Positions 27,510 through 30,494 of a DNA stretch of 30,494 nucleotides are shown here, piece by piece. The DNA comes from a virus. The stretch lies in the IMG/VR virus record IMGVR_UViG_3300037193_001395, positions 1-30,494 of that record; one strand, 5' to 3'. Numbering within the stretch: the stretch's first letter is position 1; every line of letters starts with the position of its first letter. The notes under the pieces were generated by a model. That model searched no databases, had not been told where the DNA came from, and saw only the letters and a list, made by a program, of their open reading frames with translations. The translations under genes and the position numbers were made by a program.

Positions 27510-29453
27510 TCACCAGTTCAGGGCGCCATCCCAGGCGCCCGCGCCCTGCTGCTGCAAGGCGAAGTCCAGGTCCACGACCATCTGTCCCGAGGCATCGCGC
27601 TGCGATGTGAACTCGCTGTTGTTTACGTGCCAGCCCGAGAAGTCCGTCACCATCAGCTCCCGACAGCGGATCTCCGCGAACCACAGAGCCATGACCGTGT
27701 CGGTCAAGCCCTTGGTCTCCGGGAACCAGCTACACAGCTGCTCGATCAGGGCCCGAACGCCCTCAGAGCGCGTCTGTGACGGCAGGCGGATCAGGTTCCG
27801 GCCGTCGCGCCAGCCCTCGAAGAGCAGGGCCATCGAGGCCACGCCGAAGTCCGGGTCCCATTTGTTGCTGTTCGTGTGATGCGGCGAGATCAGGCAGCCG
27901 CGGGCGTTCAGGTACGTACGGATCTCGGCGTCCTGGGTAATGGACGCCTGGTAGGCGTTCTTCTCGATCCGCCACTCGGAGATGGAGAACTTCTCCGTCA
28001 AATCCTTGATCTTCTGCCGCATCTCGTGCGGTGGCATCCCCCGCTGGTTGACGACGTCCAGCACCCAGCGCTGCCCCGTGCGGCGGTCGAGGCCGACCAC
28101 CACCATGGCCGTGCACCCCGCGGCGGCCGGGTCGAGGCCGGCGACGACCAAGAGGCCGTCCATGCCGTAGCGGCGATGGTCGGACTGGCCGTCGAACATC
28201 CGGCCCGGATAACGGGCCCGGTCTATGCAGCCCTGCACGTCGGCCTGCTTGAAGATGGCGTCATCCGCCACCTGGTCCTGCATGTAGACCATGCTCCAGT
28301 TGCGCGGCGTCATCTTGCGCCGCTTCCTGGCCAGCGCCTCGCCGTGCCACATAGGCCAGAGGCCGTCCTTCGGCCAGCCCTCGGCTTCGGCGAGCTTGCG
28401 GGCCTGGATGGTGACCGGCGGCCGGTTGGTGGCCGGCCACAGCGTCTCCCAGTCCTTCGGGTCGTCGGCGAAGGACAGCACCGCAGGCTGCGTCAGGTAC
28501 GTCCAGGGCGAGTTGCCCTCGGAGTAGTACTGCGGCTTCAGAATCTCGGAGTACAGGTCCGTGGTCGCCATGCGGGTGCCGATGAGCAGCATCCGGCCGC
28601 CAACGTCGGCGACGCGGGAACCGACGATGTTCTGGATCCAGTCGATCTGGGCTTCGAAAGCCTGGTGGTTCGTGTTGTCGACGCAGTCGTCCATGATGAC
28701 CAGGTCCGTACGCGTGCCGTAGATCTGGCCGCCGATACCGACGGCTTCGACCGTGTACTCCTTCTCGCCGGAGTCGGCTCCGGCCACACGGATCTGCGTG
28801 GAGGACCAGGTGGAGGCACCCTCGGCGAAGCCGCCGGGCGGGCCGAAGTGCTGCTGCAACTCCAGGTAGGTCTCGGACTCTGCCAGCCGCTGCTTGATGC
28901 TGAACAAGAACTTGGCGGCCATCGACTGGGTCTTCGACACCAGCAGGATGCGGATGTTCGGGTCCTGCACGATCCGCCACACCACGTAGTTCACGGTGAG
29001 CGTGGTCGACTTCGCATGCTCCGGCGGCGTGTTGACCACGATCTGGTCCTCGTCGCCCTTGACGAAGCGCTGCGCCGGGTGCAGGTCCCGGGGCTCCCGG
29101 CCCTCAAGCAGGTCGTACCACTGCAAGTGGTGCCAGAACAGCTTCGTGTTCAGGTACTTCTCGCAGAACTCCGGGAAGTCGGGGACCTCCCGCTGCTGGC
29201 CGCCCGACTTCTCGATGTTGGCCTGCAAGGCCCGGTCGATCAGGTCCCGGAAGTCCGGGTCCGTCCGGCGGTAGTAGTCGTACGTCGACCGTACGATGCC
29301 GGCCTGGTGGCAGCCCTCGGCGATGGTGTGCCCCATGCGCACCGTCGCCAGGATGATGTTCTTCCGGTCCTTGGACGAGGCCTTGGAGACACGGCGGTCC
29401 CGCGGGGAGCCGCTGCCCAGCTTGCCGTCCTTGTTGACCGTCAGGCGGGCCAT
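27510..29453 (-). CDS. terminase large subunit with N-terminal helix-turn-helix
   Basis: 647 aa, ATG at 29453 overlapping the previous stop. Residues about 36-75 (VRMGHTIAEGCHQAGIVRST, YDYYRRTDPDFRDLIDRAL) form a small-terminase-like helix-turn-helix. The ATPase follows: the P-loop variant NTPPEHAKST (141-150), LLVSKTQSMAAKFLF, Walker B LVIMDD (251-256), LIGTRMATTDLY as coupling motif. The C-terminal nuclease has VVAGLDPAAAGCTAMVVVGLD, WRIEKNAYQ and GLTDTVMALW. It pumps DNA through the portal and cuts it. No separate small terminase is recognisable in the window, so the N-terminal domain may do part of DNA recognition. Confidence 0.92.
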   Translation of the reverse strand: MARLTVNKDGKLGSGSPRDRRVSKASSKDRKNIILATVRMGHTIAEGCHQAGIVRSTYDYYRRTDPDFRDLIDRALQANIEKSGGQQREVPDFPEFCEKYLNTKLFWHHLQWYDLLEGREPRDLHPAQRFVKGDEDQIVVNTPPEHAKSTTLTVNYVVWRIVQDPNIRILLVSKTQSMAAKFLFSIKQRLAESETYLELQQHFGPPGGFAEGASTWSSTQIRVAGADSGEKEYTVEAVGIGGQIYGTRTDLVIMDDCVDNTNHQAFEAQIDWIQNIVGSRVADVGGRMLLIGTRMATTDLYSEILKPQYYSEGNSPWTYLTQPAVLSFADDPKDWETLWPATNRPPVTIQARKLAEAEGWPKDGLWPMWHGEALARKRRKMTPRNWSMVYMQDQVADDAIFKQADVQGCIDRARYPGRMFDGQSDHRRYGMDGLLVVAGLDPAAAGCTAMVVVGLDRRTGQRWVLDVVNQRGMPPHEMRQKIKDLTEKFSISEWRIEKNAYQASITQDAEIRTYLNARGCLISPHHTNSNKWDPDFGVASMALLFEGWRDGRNLIRLPSQTRSEGVRALIEQLCSWFPETKGLTDTVMALWFAEIRCRELMVTDFSGWHVNNSEFTSQRDASGQMVVDLDFALQQQGAGAWDGALNW

Positions 29454-29728
29454 CAGCGCCTCGGAGGCATCGCGGCAGTGGCCGCGCGAAGCCGGTCGTA
29501 CTTCACCGCGGTGGAGTGGCCGTCCCAGGTGTTGATCTGAGACACCGGCACGTGTTCGAAGAGGTCCATGTCGTCCGGTGCGATGTGCCAGGACATCTGC
29601 CCCTTCGGCCCGTCGACGATGACGACGGCCCAGTCCGGCTCGGCCGGATCGTGATACCCGATGGTCGCCGGGTAGATGGCGGCCAGGTGCGCCACGAGGT
29701 GCGCCCGCTCCCGGTACACGCTGTCCAT
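29453..29728 (-). CDS. WDGH-motif conserved phage protein, first gene of the late block
   Basis: 91 aa, ATG at 29728 with GGGAG upstream. The protein has a beta-rich first part (PATIGYHDPAEPDWAVVIVDG, GQMSWHIAPDDMDLFEHVP) and ends with the signature INTWDGHSTAVKYDRLRAAT, the WDGH motif shared by small proteins in many phages. The function of WDGH proteins is unknown to me. Being just upstream of the terminase, it is the first open reading frame behind the TTGACA promoter candidate, with about 60 bases of leader including a dyad. Confidence 0.72.
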   Translation of the reverse strand: MDSVYRERAHLVAHLAAIYPATIGYHDPAEPDWAVVIVDGPKGQMSWHIAPDDMDLFEHVPVSQINTWDGHSTAVKYDRLRAATAAMPPRR

Positions 29729-30067: not shown

Positions 30068-30162
30068 GACCAGGAGTAATGCCCTGGTCCAGCCCCGTCA
30101 GGGCTACCCATGCCCCGGCCTGACGGCCGGACAGCTGCGCGCCGTCAGGCGCGCGCACAGCA

Positions 30163-30183
30163 CCGCGGCCACCAAGGCCGCGG
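30163..30183. repeat. 8-bp perfect hairpin in the array
   Basis: CCGCGGCC and GGCCGCGG are separated by the loop ACCAA. The arm itself contains the palindrome CCGCGG, so cruciform or dimer forms are possible. Confidence 0.7.
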
Positions 30184-30208
30184 ATATGCGGGCCCAATGG
30201 GCCCAGCA

Positions 30209-30229
30209 GGGCCGCCCATAAGGCGGCCC
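30209..30229. repeat. 8-bp perfect hairpin in the array
   Basis: GGGCCGCC and GGCGGCCC flank the loop CATAA. Its left arm can alternatively pair with GGCCC at 30200-30204 across an AGCA loop, so two exclusive folds exist. Confidence 0.7.
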
Positions 30230-30304
30230 AAGCACTGGGGAGTTTGCCACCGAGACCTGGGCGGAGACCAGGGATCGGGGGCCAAGGCTGGTTTAACACC
30301 GGGG

Positions 30305-30323
30305 GGTCAGACGTGGTCTGACC
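30305..30323. repeat. 8-bp dyad with GTG centre
   Basis: GGTCAGAC and GTCTGACC flank GTG. Its less GC-rich, odd-centred form looks more like a protein-binding dyad than its neighbours. Confidence 0.65.
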
Positions 30324-30438
30324 AGCACAGATGGGGACAATGCAGGCCCCAACAGGGGCCAGCTTGGCCCCCGATCAGGCGAGGGGGACACTCCCGAGCC
30401 TGACCATGGCTCGGTCGGTCCCAGCACTGCATATGCAT

Positions 30439-30458
30439 GTGAGGCCAGCAGGCCTCAC
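30439..30458. repeat. 8-bp perfect hairpin with AGCA loop
   Basis: GTGAGGCC and GGCCTCAC enclose AGCA. It follows directly on the palindrome TGCATATGCA (30428-30437), the only AT-containing self-complementary site in the array. Confidence 0.75.
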
Positions 30459-30466
30459 CCATACAA

Positions 30467-30492
30467 GGGCTGCGCCCCAGCAGGCGCAGCCC
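30467..30492. repeat. 10-bp terminal hairpin at the window edge
   Basis: GGGCTGCGCC and GGCGCAGCCC, loop CCAGCA, end two bases before the last base of the window. It is the longest perfect stem in the array, as would be expected of a terminal fold-back if this edge is a real DNA end. Confidence 0.75.
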
Positions 30493-30494
30493 AC

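Follow-up and report, generated by a model that had tools for sequence, protein, structure and literature searches.

The window analysed here is the complete 30,494-bp virus record IMGVR_UViG_3300037193_001395, and base 30494 is merely the end of that record. Because the gene for the terminase large subunit (TerL) lies on the minus strand, the right window edge corresponds to the left end of the phage map, and the minus strand of the window is referred to below as the TerL-sense strand. TerL, the small gene that precedes it and the features upstream of both are listed in Table 1. The nearest cultured phages were the Streptomyces podoviruses of cluster BF (Beephvirinae), with TerL about 50% identical, and IMG/VR contained many closer relatives (TerL 62–92% identical). 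Four further relatives were found in Streptomyces genomes, two of them in contigs of 7.86 Mb and 196 kb, respectively; Streptomyces sp. MP131-18, S. composti SBST2-5 and S. himalayensis PSKA28 are among the strains with a member of the clade in their genome. Several large records of the clade, in which such enzymes are common, carried a serine recombinase. Given the serine recombinases and the copies in Streptomyces genomes, the clade looks temperate and seems to live on Streptomyces. A search for tyrosine integrases was negative, and a search for extra contigs with an early regulator gene gained little. One of the serine recombinases (L093:9314–11320) had a C-terminal part matching the IS4/5-type transposase domain DUF4096, either a fusion or an insertion remnant.

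Table 1. Features at the right-hand side of the window (coordinates are those of the 30,494-bp record).
Feature	Position	Strand	Remarks
Terminase large subunit (TerL), 647 aa	27510–29453	-	PHROG 38, E 4e-75; Pfam Terminase_6C
Small gene before TerL, 91 aa, WDGH domain	29453–29728	-	
Visible hairpin array, 13 perfect hairpins	30068–30494	-	Truncated by the window edge; relatives continue about 400 bp further
Hairpins separating the border from the terminase operon, outside the predicted repeat	30068–30229	-	
Border hairpin CCTGGTCTCCGCCCAGG	30256–30272	-	Putative cut in this phage, placed by homology
Branched cruciform around the core	30273–30376	-	14-bp outer stem 30363–30376 / 30273–30286; compensatory changes in relatives
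Conserved core TGACCCCCCGGTGTTAAACC	30290–30309	-	
Array section on the far side of the core	30310–30494	-	Predicted to lie within the terminal repeat; strand-biased loops in relatives

An earlier note on this DNA had described a chain of about 15 inverted repeats of 5–10 bp between positions 30068 and 30492. The chain proved real, but the count came to 13 non-overlapping perfect hairpins (stems 5–10 bp, loops 3–8 nt), 11 of which had stems of at least 6 bp. As the note had stated, the longest stem (10 bp, 30467–30492) stops two bases short of the window edge and the stretch holds no convincing gene, the 97- and 159-aa ORFs that span the array being purely mechanical. The two controls that it had proposed, sequence shuffling and folding of both strands, agreed with the chain: dinucleotide shuffles of the same 427 bp gave 1.16 ± 1.02 stems of at least 6 bp (maximum 7 in 1000 shuffles), and folding of the array as DNA gave z of about -8.7 on both strands. 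The remaining 425-bp blocks of the window contained 0–6 hairpins each, and none contained more than 6. A DNA similarity search of phages and plasmids with the array itself returned nothing meaningful, and an exact search of IMG/VR for its longest hairpin returned no match.

Comparison with relatives revealed that the feature is bigger than first noted and is cut off by the window edge. All 34 relatives that had a TerL identity of at least 62% and sufficient DNA upstream of TerL, including the loci in Streptomyces genome contigs, had the array (34/34), with some 425-bp block upstream of TerL holding 10–14 hairpins; in the six relatives with TerL below 62% it was absent (0/6; at most 3–7 hairpins per 425-bp block). 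Among 11 large or complete genomes the array was the single highest hairpin peak (14–24 hairpins per 850 bp vs. a mean of 3–9). It is about 800 bp long, reaching from about 600 bp upstream to about 200 bp downstream of the conserved core, and perfect hairpins cover on average 44% of these 800 bp. Pairwise comparisons of close relatives showed turnover of single hairpins, with changes that often break a stem instead of being compensated; only hairpin density and loop bias are conserved, so that selection, if any, acts on density and loop type. The contigs of nine relatives (L006, L008, L009, L015, L016, L019, L033, L050, L057), like the window, end within the array, 40–460 bp before the core, probably through assembly failure at the hairpins and possibly through a coverage change at a repeat. 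Contig-end pile-up was dropped as a proxy for virion ends, such breaks being expected assembly failures.

Across loci the array surrounds a conserved core, TGACCCC-GGGTGTTAAACC (also TGACCCC-GGGTgTTAAACC), and the identical core was found in cultured BF phages. When the direct terminal repeats of the BF phages were recomputed, they measured 253–276 bp, and the distance between the first base of the core's GTTAA and the right border, at GAGTG|AGTCCC, was exactly 28 nt in six of the seven isolates. The ends of the seventh record, phage Abafar, are placed differently: this record (PP750865; L120, L121) starts within the usual start of the repeat and has 396 bp in common between its two ends, probably owing to a misplaced start or an assembly effect. 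For FlowerPower the recomputed repeat equalled the published 253 bp, and since that repeat was reported from sequencing data (PMC9753666), it anchors the border position deduced here. In the clade under study two marks of a BF-type repeat were found, the core motif upstream of TerL and, 27–28 nt past the core (± 1 nt), the border motif TG|GTCTCC or a close variant; the equivalent of the BF right border falls at about position 30269 (± 1) of the window. An alternative raised in the earlier note, that of a packaging site, is thus supported by an array surrounding the core and border that mark the end of the repeat in cultured BF phages. A broad scan of IMG/VR with the core pattern was discarded, true and chance matches being mixed.

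The core itself lies in a branched cruciform. Over 16 sequences, the outer stem of the cruciform and the border hairpin together showed two-sided, pair-keeping changes in 7 of 19 pairs, the outer stem had one broken cell, and the variable pairs of the core cruciform exchanged one Watson-Crick type for another and gave only 3 G-U cells. Two conserved elements, ATGAGGGTTGCCT and CCTGCCCGCATGACGAGTGAC, were observed just outside the array, 650–985 and 1070–1430 bp upstream of the core (examples in L010, L026 and L028), and may be promoters or mark the repeat's left border. In the BF terminal repeats, CGGACAT/ATGTCCG occurred several times (L002 and L003, first 275 bp); these copies are possible protein-binding sites where the studied clade has hairpins instead.

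The hairpins upstream of the core shared a foldback signature. Their loop-closing pair was C-G in 353 cases and G-C in 47, vs. 615 and 631 for control hairpins in coding DNA. C(GNA)G loops were found 46 times on the TerL-sense strand and 9 times on the opposite strand, and C(GNNA)G loops, which are stable in DNA without a purine rule, 33 and 6 times, respectively; the coding control had no strand bias for GNA (17 vs. 20). Counted by phage, 30 favoured the TerL-sense strand for GNA/GNNA loops and none the other (sign test p = 2e-9, somewhat optimistic as some of these phages are close relatives). Downstream of the core the bias was weak (5 vs. 3 and 10 vs. 3), and nearest-neighbour energies differed only slightly between the strands. 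The C-G closure and the strand preference of the GNA and GNNA loops therefore suggest that the TerL-sense strand, which in a direct repeat is the 3' strand at the right-hand virion end, has been selected to fold as single-stranded DNA.

The foldbacks of Streptomyces telomeres typically have GNA loops in which G and A form a sheared pair (PMC7205883, PMC4513846), and the two linear-plasmid ends that we examined had mostly TGC/TTC loops on the 5' strand, i.e. GCA/GAA on the 3' strand. The dense palindromes and the one-strand GNA loops are what the array would have in common with a linear plasmid-prophage whose telomeres are protein-capped like those of linear Streptomyces replicons. The earlier note had proposed such a cap, with base 30494 as a true end, but the array continues in relatives and is flanked by DNA on both sides: it lies within contigs some 45 kb long and within contigs of Streptomyces genomes (7.9 Mb in one case), and both flanks continue in complete contigs as well as in the Streptomyces genomes. 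The search for Tpg/Tap that the note had suggested, run with NCBIfam models, found no gene over the cut-off in 15 phage records, the window itself being incomplete, and was positive for the linear-plasmid control; the sole weak Tpg match scored 15 bits against a cut-off of 90 and covered part of the model only. As the core, moreover, sits at a terminase-type repeat border, we regard a capped telomere as extremely improbable. What stands of the likeness to Streptomyces telomeres is the single-strand foldback signature with GNA loops on one strand; the capped end does not.

The same loop data bear on whether the array acts as RNA. If transcribed towards TerL, it would form a long structured leader controlling elongation, stability or translation of the late mRNA, and the favoured strand is indeed the TerL-sense one, with G-T outnumbering A-C wobbles 11 to 2 in the array hairpins upstream of the core and GNRA loops biased 9:1. 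However, GNYA loops, which are not an RNA-type tetraloop, were biased too (27:10), UNCG-type loops were not enriched in the array hairpins, and the wobbles were very rare beside about 420 perfect hairpins; these three points make an RNA role less likely. A first wobble test over the whole zone found no strand bias (20 vs. 15), so that, with the array-only test biased, wobble pairs alone do not tell DNA from RNA. The array of the window and those of seven relatives had no Rfam match, no terminator-like sites were present, a search for consensus terminators and promoters found none, and the Watson-Crick switching in the core cruciform, with so few G-U cells, also speaks against RNA. Overall, an RNA leader is improbable and ranks behind the replication origin discussed below.

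The fast turnover of the hairpins without strict compensation would also fit an array lacking any selected structure, in which perfect palindromes pile up through template switching at a replication pause site. Conserved boundaries around the core, C-G closure and strand-specific loops are unexpected from copying errors alone, and we consider this explanation very improbable, although copying errors may supply new hairpins.

The main rival is a replication origin, at which the core and its branched cruciform would be melted or nicked and the hairpins would serve as single-strand priming sites. The array occupies a gap between divergent early and late genes, in most complete genomes the minimum of the cumulative GC skew lies a short way upstream of it, 8 loci contain inverted DnaA-box-like TTATCCACAG sites 310–480 bp downstream of the core, and the single-strand signature fits priming sites too. 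On the other hand, the skew is confounded by divergent transcription, the DnaA-like sites are absent from most loci (present in 8/46), a scan of ten early ORFs revealed no recognisable initiator gene, and the position of the core matches the terminal-repeat border in cultured relatives. An origin therefore seems unlikely, if less so than an RNA leader.

Two motifs were observed on the TerL side of the core. The DnaA-box-like sites formed an inverted pair TTATCCACAG...CTGTGGATAA ahead of the terminase operon, always offset by 15 nt, in L004, L015, L016, L017, L029 and L040 and were present as a single copy in L010 and L024, 314–482 bp downstream of the core. In 22 of 46 loci, GCTAGC palindromes, perhaps an operator, were located at +150 to +700 relative to the core, near the start of the late operon, and none was present in the downstream control stretch.

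The array most likely belongs to the site at which these phages process their genome ends. The terminal-repeat region is the most likely assignment because in BF phages the same core lies inside the repeat, 28 nt from its right border; in favour are also the confinement of the array to -600..+200 around the core, its split by TerL identity (34/34 vs. 0/6 relatives), the C-G closure and strand-biased loops, the covariation of the core cruciform and a core-to-border spacing that matches known direct-terminal-repeat ends. Against it, end formation in the cultured BF phages proceeds without a comparable array, hairpins turn over without strict compensation between close relatives, and the two strands have nearly equal energies. 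On balance, we consider it somewhat probable that this stretch represents the terminus (concatemer junction) of a temperate Beephvirinae-related Streptomyces phage, in which the displaced repeat strand folds during end processing.

From what was directly observed (where the array lies, its conservation, the homology of core and border, and the bias in loops and closing pairs), the following mechanism can be pieced together. The border would be the terminase cut, and core and border would direct cutting, as judged from homology. As the repeat is duplicated during concatemer processing, its TerL-sense strand would be displaced or remain single-stranded; a nick letting synthesis displace this strand would expose exactly the strand that carries the biased loops. 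The array could then fold the exposed strand at once, stopping it from re-pairing, and the folded form may shield the DNA from nucleases or present it to the terminase complex. A more specific version, in which the array is a telomere-like, strand-specific foldback array within the terminal repeat and a folded single-stranded TerL-sense intermediate is obligatory for making the ends, is put forward as a tentative proposal that we hold to be less probable than the terminus assignment itself. To our knowledge, how direct-terminal-repeat phages turn the concatemer's single repeat into two ends is poorly understood outside T7/T3, and a conserved array with a single-strand signature at the end-making site points to a particular intermediate. 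If true, telomere-like hairpin chemistry arises without a terminal protein. Our literature searches found no description of a conserved hairpin array with such a telomere-like DNA-folding signature.

With the Tpg/Tap telomeres of Streptomyces the array shares tightly packed palindromes and one-strand GNA loops, a likeness of form and not of membership; it differs in not lying at a capped end, in lacking Tpg/Tap, in its greater length and several loop types, in its fast sequence turnover and in being internal in genome and prophages. Streptomyces telomeres have in turn been likened to the rolling-hairpin ends of parvoviruses (PMC4513846). A branched, self-folding single-strand structure is common to those ends and the array, but the studied phage is an unrelated double-stranded DNA tailed phage and the likeness is again one of form only. 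We know of no dense hairpin array in T7, for which a hairpin-ended intermediate has reportedly been proposed. The T7/T3 concatemer junction resembles the present case in its single repeat copy per junction, which must be duplicated for packaging (PMC5923468). The direct terminal repeats of the BF phages differ in comprising 253–276 bp without a hairpin array, whereas the studied clade has about 800 bp of hairpins around the core, and serine recombinases are common among its members; the site before TerL, the core and the 27–28-nt core-to-border spacing are the same in both.
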